Assembly (NCBI RefSeq): GCF_030296935.1 | Contig: NZ_AP028032.1 | Coordinates: 2,666,001-2,730,000 of the forward strand | Reading direction: 5' to 3' | Origin: Coprobacter fastidiosus | Lineage (GTDB): Bacteria; Bacteroidota; Bacteroidia; Bacteroidales; Coprobacteraceae | Length of the DNA: 64,000 nt | In this document: positions 43,146-51,903 of the stretch, in pieces | How positions within the stretch are numbered: position 1 is the stretch's first letter | Layout: the number at the start of each line of letters is the position of its first letter | Program-made: the position numbers and the translations under genes | Notes under the pieces: model-generated | Told to the model about the DNA's origin: nothing | Seen by the model: the letters and a program-made list of their open reading frames with translations, nothing else | Databases searched by the model: none

Positions 43146-43218
43146 GGTGCCATAGCTCAGTTGGTAGAGCAAAGGACTGAAAATCCTTGTGTCCCCGGTT
43201 CGATTCCTGGTGGCACCA
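43146..43218 (+). tRNA. tRNA-Phe (anticodon GAA)
   Basis: The acceptor GGTGCCA pairs with TGGCACC, the anticodon stem is AAGGA/TCCTT with loop CTGAAAA (anticodon GAA), and the T-loop reads TTCGATT. It is 73 bases long with discriminator A. Its last 22 bases are the left boundary of a genomic island whose right boundary repeats them. Confidence 0.97.
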
Positions 43219-43222
43219 CTTT
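43197..43222 (+). other. attL of the tRNA-Phe island
   Basis: GGTTCGATTCCTGGTGGCAC plus CACTTT, which regenerates the tRNA-Phe 3' end. It matches attR except for one base (C here, T in attR, in GGCAyCAC). Confidence 0.8.
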
Positions 43223-43478: not shown

Positions 43479-44258
43479 TTACTTCTTTTTGGCATTTATT
43501 TTTCTTACAGAATCTCCAGTAAGTTCAATCTTGTGTGCAGAGTGTACAATTCTGTCCAGTATTGCGTCAGCTACGGTAGGATCACCAATTGCATCATACC
43601 AACTTTCGACAGGAAGTTGTGATGTTATTATGATTGATTTTAGTCCGTGCCTGTCTTCTATTATTTCCATAAGGATCGACCTTTCCTTTGCGTCCAACCC
43701 AATAAGAAACAGATCGTCAAGAATCAACAGTGGGCACTTTTCAATTTTTTTCATCTCAGATTCTATTGTACCCTTATTTTTGGCCATTTTAAGATGTCCC
43801 ATAAGCTTTGATGCATTGGAATACAACGTCTTGACTCCATTTTTACACGCTTCATATCCTATGGCTGAAGCCAGGTAGCTTTTACCAGTTCCAGAGCTGC
43901 CTGTTATAAAAATATTCTGTCCGTCTCTTATAAAATCAAGAGAGGCAAGTCTTTCGAGCTGATTCCGGTCAAGGTTACGTTTTATTGTATAGTCTATTTT
44001 CTCCATATATGCCTTATATCTGAAGTTTGCAGACTTTATCAGTCGTTCAATGCTTACATTGCGCCTGTAATCATTCTCGCTTTCTAGAAGCCATTTAAGA
44101 AACTCATCATTTGTCATACCATCTGAAGATGTAGTCCTGCAGTCGTTTCTGTATGTTTCAAGCATACCGTAAAAACGTAGCTTGGAGAGTAGTTCCATTA
44201 TTCTGTCCATATTTTTTTCGACAGTTCTATTTGTCTTATTATTACTTGTCATTTTCAT
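43479..44258 (-). CDS. istB: IS21 helper ATPase
   Basis: The protein has 259 residues from Met 44258. The frame extends further upstream but inside istA, and homologous IstB proteins start near SNNKTNRTVEKNMDRIMELL. It has the AAA+ Walker A GSSGTGKSYLASAIG, Walker B LLILDDLFLIG and the IstB C-terminal HSAHKIELTGDSVRK. IstB assembles at target DNA and recruits the IstA transposase. The start overlaps the istA stop by 17 bp, so translation is coupled. Confidence 0.93.
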   Translation of the reverse strand: MKMTSNNKTNRTVEKNMDRIMELLSKLRFYGMLETYRNDCRTTSSDGMTNDEFLKWLLESENDYRRNVSIERLIKSANFRYKAYMEKIDYTIKRNLDRNQLERLASLDFIRDGQNIFITGSSGTGKSYLASAIGYEACKNGVKTLYSNASKLMGHLKMAKNKGTIESEMKKIEKCPLLILDDLFLIGLDAKERSILMEIIEDRHGLKSIIITSQLPVESWYDAIGDPTVADAILDRIVHSAHKIELTGDSVRKINAKKK

Positions 44259-45807
44259 CACTGTTTTTAGAGTTAAAATAATCCTTACCTCTGAGATTTT
44301 TATGTTTAGGAGTAAGCTCAGGGACCTGTCTCTCCATTTGGACATGATACTTTTCATCTTCCCTGTTTATCAGAATGCTTTCAATTTCGTTGTATCCAAA
44401 CATATTGGATTCCATTGCTATCTGGTATGCAAGAACCAATCTGTCGCGCCCAAAACGTTCCACAAGACTTAATATGTCATCGGATGAACGTACGGCTTGA
44501 ATCGGATATTTTTTGGCAACGGCCACTAGTTTTATGTACTCTTCCACTACCGAATCGATTTCACGTGCCTTACGGTATATATCATCCATTCTACTTCTAC
44601 ATTCATGTAGTACTCCCGGAAGTTTATGGGACTGTTTTTCTGAATAAGTAAAAGGTGTATCATCCCTGCGATGTGTCGTTATATGTCTGAATTTATGATA
44701 TATTTCCACTGTGTCCCCATCATACAGCAATTCTACAGTATCGCCGATATACTCTTTGGGGACACTGTAATAGTGATTGTTAAGCGAGACATAACTGTTT
44801 CTCATGCCAGTCGCCGTTTTCCGGTTTTTTGATATAAACCTTGTAGCGGGCAAAGTGTGCAGCCTGTCTTTCTCGACTTCGAGGAAGCGCTCCCTGCGGC
44901 TGTAACTGCGGTTGTACATCTTTCGGTTGTTCAACGCATCTGTATGTTTTACAATCTCTATGTTCAAGGCTTCAAGGTCATTGAACTTCAATCCCATCAT
45001 CTTTGAATAGACCTCCCTATAGAGCAATCTTACAGCATTCTCAACCAAGGCCTTGTCTTTTGGTTTACGTACCCTTGCCGGAAAGACAACACAACCGTAA
45101 TGGTCTGCAAATGCAGCAAAGTCATCATTGATTACAGGTTCAATCCCTCCGGGCTTTATTACGGCAGACTTGAGATTGTCGGGAACTATAGCATTAGGTA
45201 CACCTCCAAAATAATGGAAAGCATTTTCACATGCCTGGATAAAATATTCTTTCTTCTGCGATGGTACAGCCTCATAATAAGTAATCTGACTGCACGGAAG
45301 TATGGCAGCAAAAACTTCTACGGGAACCTTATCACCTGTCTTTTCGTCTGAAAGATAAAGTTTGTCACCGGCAAAATCCACATACATCTGATCACCGGCT
45401 ATATGATCTATGCGCCCAACGGGTACTTTTACTTCTCTTTCACGTCTGAGATATAGGCAAAATGAACAATAGCTGTAACCTTGAGGACGATTTTTCAGAT
45501 ACTCCTCATACAAGAACCTTCTTGTTGTTCCACGAGATTTAAGTCGTTTAAGGTACTCAGGTATATGTTCTTCAAGATACTTATACTCTGCAGATCTGGC
45601 TGATGCATTATCAATATCTACACCGAAAAGTTCATGCAGATGCTGTTCGTCCATTTTTAACAGGCGCTCCAGTTCTATACCCATATCTTCATATATACGG
45701 ATATACCGTTTGACTGTATTTCGTGAAATCAGAAGAGAAGAACTGATACTTCGGATACTCATTCCTGACTGATAGCAACGAAGGATGTGTTTGATTCTTA
45801 TTTTCAT
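44242..45807 (-). CDS. istA: IS21 transposase
   Basis: The protein has 521 residues: an N-terminal helix-turn-helix (MSIRSISSSLLISRNTVKRY, 16-35) and a DDE integrase core with D144 (YVDFAGDKL), D210 (IVPDNLKS) and E256 (KDKALVENAVRLLYREVY), then a C-terminal beta domain (YYSVPKEYIGDTVELLYDGD). All three catalytic residues are present and the frame is intact, so the element may be active. Confidence 0.95.
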   Translation of the reverse strand: MKIRIKHILRCYQSGMSIRSISSSLLISRNTVKRYIRIYEDMGIELERLLKMDEQHLHELFGVDIDNASARSAEYKYLEEHIPEYLKRLKSRGTTRRFLYEEYLKNRPQGYSYCSFCLYLRREREVKVPVGRIDHIAGDQMYVDFAGDKLYLSDEKTGDKVPVEVFAAILPCSQITYYEAVPSQKKEYFIQACENAFHYFGGVPNAIVPDNLKSAVIKPGGIEPVINDDFAAFADHYGCVVFPARVRKPKDKALVENAVRLLYREVYSKMMGLKFNDLEALNIEIVKHTDALNNRKMYNRSYSRRERFLEVEKDRLHTLPATRFISKNRKTATGMRNSYVSLNNHYYSVPKEYIGDTVELLYDGDTVEIYHKFRHITTHRRDDTPFTYSEKQSHKLPGVLHECRSRMDDIYRKAREIDSVVEEYIKLVAVAKKYPIQAVRSSDDILSLVERFGRDRLVLAYQIAMESNMFGYNEIESILINREDEKYHVQMERQVPELTPKHKNLRGKDYFNSKNSDENDK

Positions 45808-45954: not shown

Positions 45955-45988
45955 TATAATAGTGGGTCAACGGGCTTTATATTTTCCA
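45955..45988 (-). repeat. Right terminal inverted repeat of the IS21 element
   Basis: It pairs with 43351-43384. A second partial copy of its inner GGGTCAAyrGrCTTT motif lies just inside, at about 45938-45953, as is usual for multi-repeat IS21 ends. Confidence 0.85.
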
Positions 45989-45997
45989 GTTAATCAC

Positions 45998-46036
45998 TAA
46001 CTTTGCAAATATCATCAATCAATTATCGTACATTTG
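45998..46036 (+). promoter_or_regulatory. Promoter of the island cassette
   Basis: Two -7 boxes are present, TAACTTTG (45998-46005) and TACATTTG (46029-46036); the TTTG of the first could be the -33 element of the second. They lie just outside the IS21 right end, 16 bp before the HTH gene, so the IS did not separate the cassette from its promoter. Confidence 0.6.
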
Positions 46037-46051
46037 CAATATAAGCCAAAT

Positions 46052-46264
46052 ATGGAAACAGCAAAGATAAACAGATTAAAAATAGTATTGGTAGAACAAG
46101 GCAAGACAGGGAAATGGCTGGCTGGACAGTTAGGAAAGAACGAGGCAACCATTTCCCGGTGGTGTTCCAATGTAAGCCAGCCTTCTTTGGAAATGCTAAT
46201 GAAGATAGCATCCATATTAGACATTGATGCAAGACGATTGATTGACAACGGAAAAGACGAATAA
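46052..46264 (+). CDS. Small Cro/XRE-type helix-turn-helix regulator
   Basis: The protein has 70 residues from ATG 46052. The helix-turn-helix reads GKWLAGQLGKNEATISRWCS (about residues 19-38), followed by the hydrophobic core SLEMLMKIASILDIDARRLI typical of the HTH_3 family. The methyltransferase gene follows after 5 bp. Small regulators of this kind (C proteins) time the expression of restriction-modification genes; here that role is inferred from position. The leader from the nearest promoter would be very short. Confidence 0.85.
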   Translation: METAKINRLKIVLVEQGKTGKWLAGQLGKNEATISRWCSNVSQPSLEMLMKIASILDIDARRLIDNGKDE

Positions 46265-46269
46265 AGAAT

Positions 46270-47316
46270 ATGGCAAAAAGGACTATAGATAAAGCTAAAG
46301 AAGCAAAAAAGGACGAGTTTTACACTCAACTTGAAGATATTAACAATGAACTGCGGCACTATCGTGAACATTTTCGCGGTAAAACGGTACTGTGTAATTG
46401 CGATGACCCACGTGTAAGCAACTTCTTTACTTATTTTGCTTATAACTTTGAGTTTCTTGGACTGAAAAAGTTGATTACTACTTGCTATAAAAATCAGAAC
46501 ATGGATTTGTTCAGCCAGAACAAAAGCGAACAAGCCGTATATTTGGTATATGAGGGGGACAAAAACGGAGACCATATCCCAACAGCCGATGAAATAGGAG
46601 TACACCCCTTAAAAGGCGACGGTGACTTCCGAAGCAAGGAATGTATTGAACTTCTCAAAGAAGCAGATATTGTGGTAACGAACCCACCCTTTTCTTTATT
46701 TCGTGAATATGTCGCACAATTGATGGAGTATAAAAAAGAATTTTTGATTATCGGTCATCAAAATGCATTATCATATAAAGAAATATTTCCATTGATTCAG
46801 AATAATAAAATGTGGTTAGGATACGGATTTAAAGGAGGCGCAGGACATTTTATTTCAAAATATGAAGATACAGCAACAGCAAGCAACCACAAGCAAGGAA
46901 TGATAAGAGTTTCAGGTGTAACGTGGTTTACTAATTTAGACATAAAGAAACGTCACGAAGATATCATATTATTTAAATTATATTCTCCAGAAGAATATCC
47001 TCATTATATAAATTATGATGCTATAGAAATATCGAAAACAGAATTTATACCAATGGATTATGACGGCATAATGGGAGTTCCTATTACATTCATGGATAAA
47101 TATAACCCAGAACAGTTTGAAATTATTGGCATTGGAAATGGTGGAGAATTAGGTGTCGCATGTGGAGTAAGTTCAAACTTAACAAATGCTGAATGCGAAC
47201 AATTATTTAAAGAAGATAAAAGTTTTAGAAGAGGAAAGCTATGTTATCGAGATAAAAACGGGGAATTAATAGGTTGTTATGCTCGTATTTTAATAAGAAA
47301 AAAACAACAATTATGA
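46270..47316 (+). CDS. EcoRI-family adenine-specific DNA methyltransferase
   Basis: The protein has 348 residues. It matches the EcoRI methylase family: KKDEFYTQLEDINNELRHYR, LCNCDDPRVSNFFTYF and the catalytic motif IV VVTNPPFSLFREY (NPPF at 138-141). It would methylate adenine in a specific site using S-adenosylmethionine. The stop overlaps the next start in ATGA (47313-47316), so production is coupled to the DUF262-HNH protein, which is the likely partner nuclease. No gene resembling the EcoRI endonuclease itself is present. Confidence 0.9.
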   Translation: MAKRTIDKAKEAKKDEFYTQLEDINNELRHYREHFRGKTVLCNCDDPRVSNFFTYFAYNFEFLGLKKLITTCYKNQNMDLFSQNKSEQAVYLVYEGDKNGDHIPTADEIGVHPLKGDGDFRSKECIELLKEADIVVTNPPFSLFREYVAQLMEYKKEFLIIGHQNALSYKEIFPLIQNNKMWLGYGFKGGAGHFISKYEDTATASNHKQGMIRVSGVTWFTNLDIKKRHEDIILFKLYSPEEYPHYINYDAIEISKTEFIPMDYDGIMGVPITFMDKYNPEQFEIIGIGNGGELGVACGVSSNLTNAECEQLFKEDKSFRRGKLCYRDKNGELIGCYARILIRKKQQL

Positions 47317-48422
47317 AAATAGAATTACAGTCCATAAAAATAGCGGACCTAATTGACGGTTATATAAACGACCCCGAAACAGGGGTAAAAGGGTTTCATG
47401 GAAAGTTGGACATTCGTCCGCCTTATCAGCGCGAGTTCCGTTATGATGAAAAGCAACAGCAAGCCGTTGTTGATACCATTCTTAAAGGCTTTCCACTCAA
47501 TATCATGTATTGGAGTGCAAATGCTGACGGTAATTTCGAAATGATAGACGGACAACAGCGCACCCTTTCAATATGCGGATTTTACACCCACGATTTTAAT
47601 ATCATTGACCCTGACCGAGGTACACTCTATTTCTCCACTCTTACGGATGAAGAAAAAAACAAATTCCTTAACTATGAGTTGACGGTTTATTTCTGTGAAG
47701 GAACAGATAAGGAGAAACTTGATTGGTTTCGTGTAATCAACATTGCAGGAGAAAAACTTCTTGACCAAGAATTGCTGAATGCCGTTTATGCCGGACCTTT
47801 TGTAACAGATGCCCGCAGGCATTTTTCAAAGAACGGATGTCCTGCTTATAAGATGGGAGCCGATTTTTTGAGCGGTAATGCCATAGAGCAGGCATATTTG
47901 GCTACTATCTTGAAATGGGCGGCTCGCCATGACGGTGTGGAAAGCATCGACAAGTATATGGCTTTGCACCAGTTTGACCCTAATGCCAATAAACTTTGGG
48001 CTTACTTTGTATCTATTATCACTTGGATACGTTCAACCTTTACCAAATACCGCCGTGAGATGAAAGGTTTGGATTGGGGAGCCATGTATGATGAGTTTAG
48101 TGAAAACGTATATGATACGGTCGTCCTCGAAAAGCAGATACACGATTTGATGGAGGATGATGAAATCATGAAGAAGTCCGGCATCTATCGCTACGTGCTG
48201 AGCGGCGACCTGCGCGACCTCAGTTTCCGCACTTTCGACAAGAAGCAGAAACGCGAAGCCTATGAGCGGCAGCACGGTATCTGTATTCATTGCGGCAAGC
48301 ACTTTGAATTGGAGGAAATGGAAGCTGACCATATTACGCCTTGGAAAGAAGGCGGTACGACTGTGGCGGGAAATTGCCAAATGCTTTGTAAGAATTGTAA
48401 TAGAATTAAAGGAGGAAAATAA
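47313..48422 (+). CDS. DUF262 and HNH endonuclease domain protein
   Basis: The protein has 369 residues from ATG 47313. The N-terminal DUF262 domain (ParB/sulfiredoxin-like NTPase fold) shows IRPPYQREFRYDEKQQQ (34-50) and DGQQR (79-83). The C-terminal HNH nuclease reads HGICIHCGKHF, EADHITPWKEGG and CQMLCKNCN, with zinc-binding CxxC pairs. The same combination of domains occurs in GmrSD/BrxU type IV restriction enzymes, although those use DUF1524 or variant HNH ends. Coupled to an adenine methyltransferase, it is the likely cutting part. Confidence 0.88.
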   Translation: MKIELQSIKIADLIDGYINDPETGVKGFHGKLDIRPPYQREFRYDEKQQQAVVDTILKGFPLNIMYWSANADGNFEMIDGQQRTLSICGFYTHDFNIIDPDRGTLYFSTLTDEEKNKFLNYELTVYFCEGTDKEKLDWFRVINIAGEKLLDQELLNAVYAGPFVTDARRHFSKNGCPAYKMGADFLSGNAIEQAYLATILKWAARHDGVESIDKYMALHQFDPNANKLWAYFVSIITWIRSTFTKYRREMKGLDWGAMYDEFSENVYDTVVLEKQIHDLMEDDEIMKKSGIYRYVLSGDLRDLSFRTFDKKQKREAYERQHGICIHCGKHFELEEMEADHITPWKEGGTTVAGNCQMLCKNCNRIKGGK

Positions 48423-48424
48423 GT

Positions 48425-49558
48425 ATGAATTGTCAATTTTGTGGACAGGAATTACCTGAAAATGCCAAGTTCTGTTTTAAGTGTAGAAGACAAATTATTT
48501 GTATGAACTGTGGAGAAAGGCTTATTGAAGGAGCTTCTATATGTGTTTTTTGCGGAAATGAAATAAGCATACCAAACAATAATATTGAACAGAATCATAT
48601 AAAATACAAAGAAACAAAAACTTTAAAATCATTTGAAGCGACATTTTCAAATGAAACTGCGGGTGCTGTAGCCAAAACATTCGCACAATTTCTTCCTCTG
48701 AAAAAGAATATTATTGGTGATACGAAAGAAATTTTTCATGATACACAAATTGAAGATGTAGAAGATATAACGCCTGCCAAAGCTTTACTTCCTGTAAAGC
48801 AGGAAGAATTAGCTGATAAAAATCCAAATATTAATGATATATTCAAAGTACGAGGAGACAATGATATATATTTGCATGAAACAAGCTTAAAAGCCAATAG
48901 CAAAGTTGATTATGCGGGGCGATTAACAATACTGTATTTATTTTATATGCAGTCAAATGGAACTACTGAAGTTCCCAAAACAGAAGTAATTGCTTTTTTG
49001 AAGAAAATAGGTTTCAATAATGATGGAAATTATCGCGGTTGGATGTCCAAAATGAAAGCTTTATATAATATCAACAATAATTGCTATTGTCTATGTAGAG
49101 CTGGAGAAGAACGTGCAAAAGAATATCTTAAAGATATTTTTGATGGAGACAAAGTTGATAATTGGAAACTCGGAGATACTTCAAAGGGAAATTATAGATT
49201 TAACAATAAGGCAAACAATATTCCAAAGAACTCTTATTCAATAGAAGGCTCTTTGAATTTAAATCCTTCAGATAATGAGTCTCTTAAATCTTTTATAGGG
49301 AAATTCAAAGCTTCAAATGGTTTTCAATACAATTTATTATTTGCATATTACTTACAAAAAGTTATTGGCAAAACTAATATTAACGCAAATCACATATATA
49401 CGTGCTATAAAAATGTAGGGGTGAAAATACCAAATAATCTATATCAAAGTCTTGTTGATACAAAAAATAAGAAGGGGTGGATAGATACCTCAGATATGAA
49501 TAATATAACGGTTACAATAAGTGGTGAAAATTGTGTAGAACAAGATTTGAAGAAATGA
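48425..49558 (+). CDS. Double zinc-ribbon protein with winged-helix-like repeats
   Basis: The protein has 377 residues. The first 43 hold two zinc ribbons (cysteines 3, 6, 17, 20 and 26, 29, 40, 43). A variable polar linker follows, then two domains of about 80 residues (about 155-240 and 285-370) that look like winged helices (SKVDYAGRLTILYLFYMQ... ; NGFQYNLLFAYYLQKVIGKT). The second resembles the N-terminus of the next protein. It is very AT-rich. I do not recognise the family. Position suggests a nucleic-acid-binding part of the cassette; it starts 2 bp after the nuclease and overlaps the next gene by 4 bp. Confidence 0.75.
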   Translation: MNCQFCGQELPENAKFCFKCRRQIICMNCGERLIEGASICVFCGNEISIPNNNIEQNHIKYKETKTLKSFEATFSNETAGAVAKTFAQFLPLKKNIIGDTKEIFHDTQIEDVEDITPAKALLPVKQEELADKNPNINDIFKVRGDNDIYLHETSLKANSKVDYAGRLTILYLFYMQSNGTTEVPKTEVIAFLKKIGFNNDGNYRGWMSKMKALYNINNNCYCLCRAGEERAKEYLKDIFDGDKVDNWKLGDTSKGNYRFNNKANNIPKNSYSIEGSLNLNPSDNESLKSFIGKFKASNGFQYNLLFAYYLQKVIGKTNINANHIYTCYKNVGVKIPNNLYQSLVDTKNKKGWIDTSDMNNITVTISGENCVEQDLKK

Positions 49559-50304
49559 TGACATTAGAAGAATTTATTATTAGAATTGACAACTTTCTAT
49601 CTTTGAAATCCTCTGAACAAATTCCGTATTTTGGATATTATATTTTGAAATACCAAAATAAAGAATCTTTTACAGCCAAAGAGATCGAAAAATGTTTTGC
49701 AGAAACTCACATTACACCTTATAGCAACATTTCGGCATATCTCTCGAAAGAAAAGAAAGCTAAACATATGTTATCTCATAAAAACGGAGGATATATTCTA
49801 ACTAGAACCGTTGAAAATCAAATATCTAATACCATAGGAGAAGTAAAGGTGAATGAACCATCTGGGAATTTATTTCCCCTTGAGTTATTTAATAACACAC
49901 GCACATATTTGCAGAAAACAGCTAAGCAAGCTATATTATGTTACGATTATCAAATATATGACGCTTGTTTGGTTATGATTAGACGATTGATAGAGACTTT
50001 GATAATAGAATTGTATGAACGATTTGAGATAAAAGAGCAAATACAAGATACAAAAGGGAACTATTTGTTTTGTTCTGACTTAATAGACAGGTTATTATCT
50101 GAGAAAAAGTTATGGACAATCGGTCGCAATTCAGCTAAAGCTCTCCCTGATATTAAAACAAAAGGCGATTTAAGTGCACATAATAGACGATTTAATGCAA
50201 TTAAAACTGATATCGATACTATTAAGGTTGGTTTGAGAGTAGTTTTAGAAGAACTTGTCCATCTAATAAACTATGAACAGTGGAATGCTAGCAAAAAAAA
50301 GTAA
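49555..50304 (+). CDS. DUF4145/HEPN-like protein with N-terminal winged-helix-like domain
   Basis: The protein has 249 residues from ATG 49555, which overlaps the previous stop (ATGA). Residues 1-85 resemble the winged-helix-like repeat of the preceding protein (FTAKEIEKCFAETHITPYSN, then KNGGYILT). Residues 110-245 are all-helical: AKQAILCYDYQIYDACLVMI, RRLIETLIIELYERF, then KTKGDLSAHN before the last helix. That pattern is like DUF4145 and HEPN-type proteins, several of which are toxins or RNases in defence systems. The assignment is by eye. A strict R-x4-6-H motif is not clear. Confidence 0.65.
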   Translation: MMTLEEFIIRIDNFLSLKSSEQIPYFGYYILKYQNKESFTAKEIEKCFAETHITPYSNISAYLSKEKKAKHMLSHKNGGYILTRTVENQISNTIGEVKVNEPSGNLFPLELFNNTRTYLQKTAKQAILCYDYQIYDACLVMIRRLIETLIIELYERFEIKEQIQDTKGNYLFCSDLIDRLLSEKKLWTIGRNSAKALPDIKTKGDLSAHNRRFNAIKTDIDTIKVGLRVVLEELVHLINYEQWNASKKK

Positions 50305-50308
50305 GTAT

Positions 50309-51691
50309 ATGCTAACCGAATCTCAAAACATAGAATTCAAAGAGTCTTGGCGCGACGAATACCAGAAATGGATTTGTGGTTTTGCCAATGCACAAGGCGG
50401 TATCCTTTATGTGGGCGTAAAGGATAATGGCGAGGTGTGCGGTGTGCATGATGCCAAGAAACTGATGGAAAACATTCCGAACAAGGTGCGCGACATGATG
50501 GGTATCTTGTTGGATGTCAATCTGAAAGAGAAAGACGGGAGGGCTTATCTGGAGATTGTGACGGAGGCTTATCCTTATCCCGTCAGTTTCCGTGGCAAGT
50601 ATTATCAACGGAGCGGTGCGACCAATCAGGAACTGAAAGGGGCGGCACTCGACCGCTTTATGCTTCGTAAACAAGGAAAGACATGGGACGGTGTGCCTGT
50701 ACCTTATCTGAAAGCGGAGGACTTGGACAACGCCACGTTTGATTTGTTCCGCAAGTATGCCAAACGGAGCGGACGCATGGAGGAAGCGGACTTAATGGAC
50801 GATAATCATGGACTGTTGGAGAAGCTCCGACTTTATGAAGGCAGTTACTTGAAACGTGCTGCTGCCTTACTATTCCATCCCGACCCGGAAAAGTATGTGA
50901 CCGGAGCGTTTGTAAAGGTCGGCTTCTTCCGTGAAGGTATGGATTTGGTGTATCAAGACGAAGTGCATGGCAATCTGTTCCAGCAAATTGTGAAGTTAAT
51001 GGACTTGCTGTGTACTAAATACATGAAAGCCGTCATTACTTACGAAGGCATCCATCGGATAGAGACATTGCCTATACCTCGTGAGGCGCTGCGTGAGGCG
51101 TTATTGAATGCTTGCATCAACAAAGACTATGCAGAACCTTCTCCCATTCAAATCCGTGTGTATGAAAACAAGTTGGAGATAATAAACGGTGGAGTATTGC
51201 CCGAAGGTTGGACTGTGGAAACCTTATTGTCCTCACATCGGAGTATGCCTTACAACCCTGATATTGCCAATACGTTCTTCCGTGCAGGTGAGATTGAGGC
51301 GTGGGGGCGCGGCATCGAGCGTATTATTATGGCTTGTAAGAATGACGGATTCTCCACGCCGGAATTCCGTTATGATGCTTCGGGTATCTGGACAACGTTC
51401 AAGTTTGAATACCCGGAAAGGGCTACGACCCAATACGACCCAGAAACGACCCAAAAGAACGACCCAGAAACGACCAGAGACCGACCAGAAACCGACCAGC
51501 AAAAGCAAGAAAACGTCATTCTTGAACTAATTAAAGAGAATCCTTATATACAAAGAAAAGAATTAGTAAGTCGCTTAGGCATACATGAAAGTAGCGTAAA
51601 ACGTCGGTTGGCTTCACTCCAAAAAAAGGGGATAATCAGACATGTCGGTCCGAATAAAGGCGGTTATTGGGAAGTCCAAAAAGGATTTTGA
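50309..51691 (+). CDS. AlbA_2 (Schlafen-like) DNA-binding and ATPase-like protein with C-terminal winged helix
   Basis: The protein has 460 residues from ATG 50309, 4 bp after the previous stop (the frame extends 36 bp further upstream into that gene). Residues 1-130 are an AlbA_2 domain (ESQNIEFKESW, CGFANAQGGILYVGVKDNGE). Then comes a COG2865-type GHKL-like domain with PREALREALLNACINKDY and EAWGRGIERI, then a Thr/Pro/Asp-rich linker with repeated DPETT, then a helix-turn-helix (QRKELVSRLGIHESSVKRRL). Such proteins are regulators or defence factors. The GC content is clearly higher than in the two genes before it, so it may have been acquired separately. Confidence 0.85.
   Translation: MLTESQNIEFKESWRDEYQKWICGFANAQGGILYVGVKDNGEVCGVHDAKKLMENIPNKVRDMMGILLDVNLKEKDGRAYLEIVTEAYPYPVSFRGKYYQRSGATNQELKGAALDRFMLRKQGKTWDGVPVPYLKAEDLDNATFDLFRKYAKRSGRMEEADLMDDNHGLLEKLRLYEGSYLKRAAALLFHPDPEKYVTGAFVKVGFFREGMDLVYQDEVHGNLFQQIVKLMDLLCTKYMKAVITYEGIHRIETLPIPREALREALLNACINKDYAEPSPIQIRVYENKLEIINGGVLPEGWTVETLLSSHRSMPYNPDIANTFFRAGEIEAWGRGIERIIMACKNDGFSTPEFRYDASGIWTTFKFEYPERATTQYDPETTQKNDPETTRDRPETDQQKQENVILELIKENPYIQRKELVSRLGIHESSVKRRLASLQKKGIIRHVGPNKGGYWEVQKGF
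51422..51505 (+). repeat. Short tandem repeats coding the protein linker
   Basis: Units of about 10-16 bases based on ACGACCCAGAAACGACC are repeated five or six times with drift. They encode the DPETT-like linker of the AlbA_2 protein and could change length by slippage. Confidence 0.65.
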
Positions 51692-51877
51692 ACCAAGGTG
51701 GAGAAGTTTTCATGATTACATGCCTGACTTTCAAAAGAAAGCAGTATATTTGTAATTGATAAAGGAAACCTCCACGCAATCTGTCGCAGAACGCTGCAAC
51801 AATTCGGTGGAGCAATAGCGGGAGATTATACTACTTGCTGATTCATAAATCAAAGATATTCAGCTACTTGGATAGAT
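51692..51877. other. Non-coding right end of the island
   Basis: There is no gene here. A -7-like box TATATTTG (51745-51752) points into empty sequence, and GGTGGAG occurs twice. A similar GGTGGAGCAA occurs near the left end (about 43335), so these may be recombinase arm sites or remnants of lost genes. Confidence 0.4.
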
Positions 51878-51903
51878 GGTTCGATTCCTGGTGGCATCAC
51901 TTT
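51878..51903 (+). other. attR of the tRNA-Phe island
   Basis: This is a direct repeat of the tRNA-Phe 3' end (GGTTCGATTCCTGGTGGCAT then CACTTT), one mismatch from attL. It is the remnant of the original tRNA end displaced by integration. Confidence 0.8.

Follow-up and report, generated by a model that had tools for sequence, protein, structure and literature searches.

We examined a six-gene locus of Coprobacter fastidiosus (positions 46052-51691) within a 64,000-nucleotide stretch of contig NZ_AP028032.1, hereafter the window, and read it as a restriction-modification (RM) trio carried by a mobile element that has decayed; an exchangeable two-gene module behind the endonuclease gene may serve as back-up. 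We give this reading a probability of about 0.6. An initial annotation, made from the sequence without database searches, had proposed a defence system; that remains plausible and its view of genes 2 and 3 as a modification-guarded nuclease holds, whereas its picture of one integrated six-gene system with an RNA-targeting arm fared less well. The six open reading frames (ORFs) lie on one strand and are tightly packed, with short gaps or 4-bp overlaps:

46052..46264, +: C, a 70-aa helix-turn-helix (HTH) protein of Cro/CI type (Pfam HTH_3, 9.3e-9)
46270..47316, +: M, EcoRI-family adenine methyltransferase, 5 bp after C (EcoRI_methylase PF13651, 8.5e-137)
47313..48422, +: R, DUF262-HNH endonuclease, in 4-bp ATGA overlap with M (GmrSD_N 2.6e-18; HNH 2.6e-13)
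48425..49558, +: ZnR, first gene of the slot, 2 bp after R (Zn_Ribbon_1 5e-8; DZR 6.1e-7)
49555..50304, +: HEPN, second gene of the slot, overlapping ZnR by 4 bp (DUF4145 2.2e-5)
50309..51691, +: AlbA_2 (Schlafen) gene with RecG-C/HATPase_c_4 and winged-helix parts, 4 bp after HEPN (SLFN_AlbA_2 6.5e-17; HATPase_c_4 2.3e-18; HTH_24 4.6e-8)

The coordinates bear out the single-strand cluster, gene order, 2-5 bp gaps and ATGA overlaps originally described, and the domain names given then were upheld by Pfam, DUF4145 marginally so (24.9 bits). Alternative start codons of the AlbA_2 gene (ATG at 50285 or 50273) would make it overlap the HEPN gene.

The restriction-modification trio

Judged by homology, the first three genes constitute a type II-like RM system in which M and R form a modification-guarded nuclease. 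M matched the MTase_II methylase model PDLC03297 at 7e-114, and R matched the REase_II model PDLC03418 at 2.4e-122 over residues 1-366 of 369 (PADLOC-DB 2.0.0 of 2023), the two belonging to matching families and being encoded by adjacent genes. They also stay together without extra subunits: M adjoined R in all seven plasmid loci opened (7.2-11.1 kb), and TBLASTN found no homologue of C, ZnR, HEPN or AlbA_2 at E <= 1e-3 in any of the seven. The plasmids came from Bacillota, Pseudomonadota, Actinomycetota, Bacteroidota and one uncultured source; on that of Chryseobacterium M was unannotated and was matched in two pieces. Homologues of R (E <= 1e-40) occupied 48 places in 42 of 393 genomes of the order, own genome included (going by Parabacteroides L031, the order set was taken as Bacteroidales and the phylum set as Bacteroidota), and 93 plasmid records contained one at E <= 1e-5, 43 of them covering at least 80% of the query. 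Sequence searches of solved structures matched R only through its HNH part and returned nothing for M. A homologue of C with 60-74% identity precedes M in four relatives (L032, L058, L106 and L107), and C is probably the RM controller, controller genes being a familiar component of RM operons.

One part of the trio varies:

47130..47312, +: the ~60 codons at the 3' end of M, variable, with a DNA homology break in four relatives

DNA homology of M with the four ended at 47129-47134 and restarted at 47299-47313. The final block of the protein was 27-33% identical between relatives, compared with 62-98% before it, and R was conserved; one C-terminal variant was common to L058 and L107 (86%). These last ~60 residues could possibly be a specificity or inhibitor-evasion segment. 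Avoidance of GAATTC was considered as a sign of the RM site and set aside, the 23 occurrences in the window against 36.35 expected (standard deviation 5.73) being a weak and unspecific signal. Two further gene arrangements were also noted: a Bro-N gene (DinD-like by eye) lies between M and R in genome G071 (L032:5170-6027), and in G052 (L033:1749-4479) genes for a C5 cytosine methylase and a HATPase_c_3 protein come after the RM genes.

The exchangeable spot behind R

Homology of the window with L106 (genome G388) and L032 (G071) ended at the stop of R (48422-48426) and restarted at the start of AlbA_2 (50305-50307), the remaining AlbA_2 homology in L032 amounting to 178 bp. ORFs in the relatives' loci were called with our own ORF script, and contig ends truncate L031, L058 and L120. 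The slot between these two points was occupied as follows:

Window, L031 and L058: ZnR and HEPN
L032 and, with a broken membrane gene, L106: a 329-aa protein and a 266-aa membrane protein (membrane calls by eye)
L107 (L107:6440-8850, genome G290): a 317-aa protein, a 150-aa membrane protein (by eye) and an NA37 protein
L120: a DUF4268/DUF4357 protein, its HSDR_N_2 match being sub-threshold

Close coupling behind R is a property of its nearest relatives. In each of the seven loci whose R is at least 74.7% identical (the window, L031, L032, L058, L106, L107 and L120, with L031 taken from another collection), an ORF of 317-505 aa on the same strand begins 1-17 bp downstream of R; where R is 36-58% identical, 0 of 33 loci had a same-strand ORF of at least 150 aa within 30 bp. 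Besides the window, 39 of the 48 R places were searched (8 were not fetched, and L102, without downstream sequence, was omitted from the ORF count), and genes 4-5 stood behind R in one of the 39, that of G185.

Neither Pfam nor PADLOC yielded anything useful on the remaining slot proteins of L032 and L107. The first slot protein of L032 was found in 2 of 149 genomes, namely G071 itself and, as a distant match (4.5e-11), G125, where it is followed by genes for a membrane protein (judged by eye) and for a relative of the L107 NA37 protein with 56% identity. The L032-type and L107-type contents may therefore be distantly related as judged from these matches, and the sets of L107 and G125 are a candidate separate module. 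The short locus of the G125 set (L130) had no R match. RhuM genes stand behind the slot in L032 and L107 and, by eye, in L106.

Base composition and divergence were compared along the locus. In the window, R had a guanine-cytosine (GC) content of 0.431, the two slot genes had 0.301 and 0.307 and AlbA_2 had 0.466; slot GC in L032, L058, L106 and L107 was 0.25-0.33. Comparison with L031 revealed one further feature:

49144..50304, +: high-identity tract versus L031, 95-100% per 100 bp, flanked by 84-95% on its left and 80-89% on its right

Synonymous divergence (dS) from L031 was 0.717 for the R part, 0.265 for ZnR, 0.055 for HEPN and 0.863 for the AlbA_2 part. We read the tract as the probable trace of a recent recombination or exchange.

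Relatives of the AlbA_2 gene that closes the locus (E <= 1e-60) occur in 31 of 149 genomes of the order, counting the own one. In all 14 loci examined, out of 37 places besides its own, it was found without M, R, ZnR or HEPN matches in flanks of up to 1.5 kb. Its copy in L106 is broken and that in L032 is a remnant.

The mobile element and the separable pair

The features that border the locus are these:

43146..43219, +: tRNA-Phe gene, the integration target (ARAGORN; Rfam RF00005, 68.4 bits)
43197..43222, +: left att-like repeat, the tRNA-Phe 3' end with following bases
51878..51903, +: right att-like repeat, 25 of 26 bases matching the left copy, 8.7 kb apart
51721..51903, +: conserved right end of the element, common in whole or in part to L032, L106 and L107
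43351..45988, -: IS21-type insertion sequence with 34-bp inverted ends (IstB_IS21 3.7e-63; Mu-transpos_C_2 9.2e-13)
43479..44357 and 44242..45807, -: istB and istA, the genes of the IS21 copy

Comparison with relatives identified the locus between the tRNA-Phe repeats as cargo of an integrative mobilizable element (IME), of which the window copy has no integrase or mobilization genes. Direct repeats lie at the 3' end of the tRNA gene, as in IMEs, and no ORF for an integrase or for mobilization was present between the repeats of the window. Pfam recognised an integrase in L126 (G290), L127 (G388) and L128 (G071), and a relaxase in L127 and L128. G290 and G071 have repeats at both ends, 11.2 and 14.0 kb apart, with the same 22-bp core at the left end and right copies with 1 and 3 mismatches of 22; tRNA-Phe was called in L126, and in L128 the tRNA is cut by the contig edge and was not called. 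Between their repeats, both carry an integrase, HTH genes (by eye) and C-M-R, to which G071 adds MobC and relaxase genes and G290 adds MobC_2 and a DUF3408 gene, with no relaxase recognised. In G388 there are an integrase, a disrupted-looking relaxase region and a right repeat, whereas the left copy is poor (4 mismatches) and has no called tRNA. Homology with G290 and G388 restarts at 45990-45991, directly past the IS21 copy, whose end lies at 45988; the missing part of the element can accordingly be located where IS21 now sits. No empty tRNA-Phe site was seen among five genomes of the genus, the right-flank gene being present only in G003 and in the own genome, with no tRNA called near the G003 copy.

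Upstream of C, next to the insertion sequence, we noted the following:

46002..46036, +: candidate promoter TTTG-N23-TACATTTG, of a Bacteroidetes-like pattern

A further -7-like box lies at 45998-46005, and a TANNTTTG box precedes the HTH gene in four relatives. The single promoter proposed for the cassette thus remains a candidate.

By their distribution, genes 4-5 are a separable pair. They occurred without M, R or AlbA_2 matches in L061 and, in two other genomes of Bacteroidota, in L079 (G491, 9.0 kb) and L080 (G409, 11.5 kb). The second proteins of L079 and L080 are 39% and 37% identical to the window HEPN protein over nearly its full length; the first proteins match the window ZnR weakly (E 1.5e-4 and 7.7e-5), both with a Pfam double zinc ribbon. 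L061 is a second, divergent copy at 680 kb of the own genome (26% and 42-43% identical), its first protein being without zinc ribbons; MobC and relaxase genes precede it, and the 16-kb stretch around it also contains a same-family integrase and tRNA-Lys. The same region (L061:1871-11709, ~674-684 kb of the own genome) also holds a SIR2 gene matching Thoeris ThsA (PADLOC 3.2e-22). In L059, from the same genus, a ZnR relative is followed by a Swt1-like HEPN protein (3e-10); the partner gene in L060 had no Pfam match and is HEPN-like by eye only. In the contig collection L031 held the one relative of the ZnR protein, and in 295 order genomes 8 had any match to it, several via the zinc ribbon alone. 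At one chromosomal site with the same neighbours, two genomes belonging to one genus had different two-gene pairs: a DUF5343 protein with a relative of the window HEPN protein (L081:5628-6814), and a winged-helix-like protein with a partner bearing RRNSAAH and matching PD-T7-3 in PADLOC at 1.3e-7 (L082:4856-6210).

The best-surviving alternative, which we nevertheless consider unlikely, takes genes 4-5 as a toxin-antitoxin (TA)-like maintenance pair of mobile elements, or as a regulator pair, rather than as an anti-phage back-up. The pair is an overlapping two-gene unit that joins a nucleic-acid-binding-type protein to a HEPN-type partner, and mobile genes lie near it in the window, in L061 (relaxase), in L059 (a relaxase-like ORF end, by eye) and in L080 (an adjoining IS1595-type transposase). 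The ORFs of L079, however, include no recognised mobile gene but a toxin-like HEPN_RES_NTD1-RES gene, which adjoins the stand-alone pair on the other strand (L079:653-1828), and the first protein exceeds the usual antitoxin size. TA genes are listed among IME cargo in the part of PMC5704250 considered here. A TA role and a defence role are mutually compatible.

Predicted structures describe the two proteins unequally. The HEPN protein was modelled well (pLDDT 87.7), with an N-terminal winged helix (MntR, Z 7.7) and a C-terminal domain that compares with 2hsb as a HEPN fold (Z 12.1, root-mean-square deviation 3.1, 121 residues), although Z up to 13 may be unspecific for helical bundles and Roquin ROQ domains score close behind. 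Foldseek with this model gave nothing at E <= 0.001 (E 0.98), and the best profile match of the HEPN sequence to solved structures had E 0.21. In the ZnR protein winged helices at ~154-243 and 297-377 (Z ~8) appear in the predicted structure alone, a model of low overall confidence, and for residues 50-134 this model established no fold.

Weighing the readings, and known systems

Under the reading of an RM trio with an exchangeable back-up, M would methylate adenine in a host DNA site and R would cut unmodified incoming DNA, with C timing R. The ZnR-HEPN module would act as a back-up once RM is evaded or overwhelmed: ZnR may be a sensor or adaptor that detects nucleic acid or damage and controls its partner, and the HEPN effector may arrest growth, perhaps by attacking or binding RNA via a non-canonical site. 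Recombination between mobile elements would then swap the back-up and keep the RM genes.

Several observations weigh against this reading. Of 9 proteins aligned, 8 did not have the RX4-6H motif expected of ribonucleases at the conserved His; the eight share a conserved K-D-S-H-R set that may still allow catalysis, the L081 protein has another R-x6-H match further on, and only L082, a different partner, has RRNSAAH. The RNA-targeting arm of the initial annotation is weakened because this motif is missing, and PMC3710099, in the portion relevant here, gives RX4-6H as 80% conserved in DUF4145 and regards motif-less HEPN domains as probably RNA-binding. The DUF4145 match clears its cut-off (23.1 bits) narrowly in the window protein and was not found at E <= 1e-3 by Pfam in the relatives of L058, L061, L079 and L080, so that the HEPN assignment rests mainly on the model; that of the ZnR protein is poor overall (pLDDT 61.9). 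The pair is rare: profiles matched 3 of the 393 genomes of the order and 5 of the 345 of the phylum, both counts including the own genome, and the HEPN protein was found neither in plasmids or phages (TBLASTN, E <= 1e-5) nor in viral contigs (pattern scan). PADLOC gave no match for ZnR and one weak partial match for HEPN (E 0.0017), and no named anti-phage system matched both genes. L107 and L120 had no AlbA_2 match, and G185 has a DUF4062-HATPase_c_4 gene in its place. Finally, GC alone does not mark the slot, because M is low as well (0.339).

A single defence system that requires all six parts together is improbable. Apart from the tight packing, it can draw on recurring gene order: C-M-R-ZnR-HEPN recurs in G185 (L058) with identities of 67, 75, 80, 58 and 74%, and R-ZnR-HEPN-AlbA_2 in L031, a Parabacteroides metagenome-assembled contig whose ends cut R and AlbA_2. 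Ratios of nonsynonymous to synonymous divergence (dN/dS) between window and L031 were 0.018 for the R part, 0.121 for both ZnR and HEPN and 0.049 for the AlbA_2 part. From the recurrent order and the low dN/dS, the arrangement is more than chance. The parts nevertheless occur apart, as plasmid M-R, stand-alone pair and lone AlbA_2, and the closest relatives of R carry other genes in place of 4-5, on which grounds we rejected the single system. The initial annotation had itself named as refuting evidence homologous loci in which the last three genes do not travel with the first three, and the single recurrence of genes 4-5 among the searched R places is of that kind. It had also named a match to a known system, and M and R do match named type II RM models. 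From the separate occurrence of the parts and the type II matches of M and R, we therefore regard the locus as a composite with an exchangeable insert. That genes 4-6 are passive passengers with no function linked to RM is highly improbable: slot contents do vary widely and the AlbA_2 and membrane genes are damaged in some relatives, but the low dN/dS and the tight coupling behind R in all seven close relatives speak against it.

The composite has a defined layout that exists in several natural forms: one RM backbone carries four different inserts at one point, two of them possibly distantly related. A bolder idea, which we hold to be doubtful, is that the spot behind R is a fixed docking site for interchangeable back-up modules, each answering a failure of R, with one RM system as common trigger for many effectors. 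Comparison of the variants would offer a direct test of whether different back-up effectors are set off by restriction failure, as has been envisaged for PrrC. The ZnR/HEPN pair is also of interest as a small candidate defence or maintenance module of Bacteroidota.

Compared with the type II pairs of PADLOC (PDLC03297 and PDLC03418), with which it shares M and R and their adjacency, the window adds a C-like HTH gene upstream and an exchangeable module and AlbA_2 downstream. GmrSD/BrxU type IV enzymes (DUF262 with DUF1524), as far as described in the parts of PMC4619093 and PMC12707154 used here, likewise have DUF262 with DGQQR and an HNH-type nuclease part, but they target modified DNA, whereas in the window the nuclease part of R is Pfam HNH (PF01844) and a methylase accompanies it. 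Bacteroides IMEs such as NBU1, in the sections of PMC5704250 compared, resemble the window's relatives in their tyrosine integrase, use of a tRNA 3' end and MobC/relaxase genes; they differ in that tRNA-Phe is not a target in the table rows compared, and that the window copy is without integrase and mobilization genes. A parallel in logic exists with RM operons that contain a HEPN back-up (PrrC-PrrI and RloC). The relevant part of PMC3710099 describes DUF4145 HEPN genes in operon with RM, at least 16 HEPN clades linked to RM and RhuM-like genes accompanying PrrC/RloC in such operons, and because it proposed a PrrC-like back-up there, the principle of a second line behind RM, which we share, is already known. 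Unlike PrrC/RloC, the window RM is type II-like and without an ABC ATPase, a separate ZnR/winged-helix protein is the partner, HEPN is without RX4-6H and the contents of the spot exchange. Neither the exact gene order nor the swap spot was found in titles or abstract openings of the literature, among the matches listed. The parts are of known kinds, but exchange at one fixed spot is unusual.

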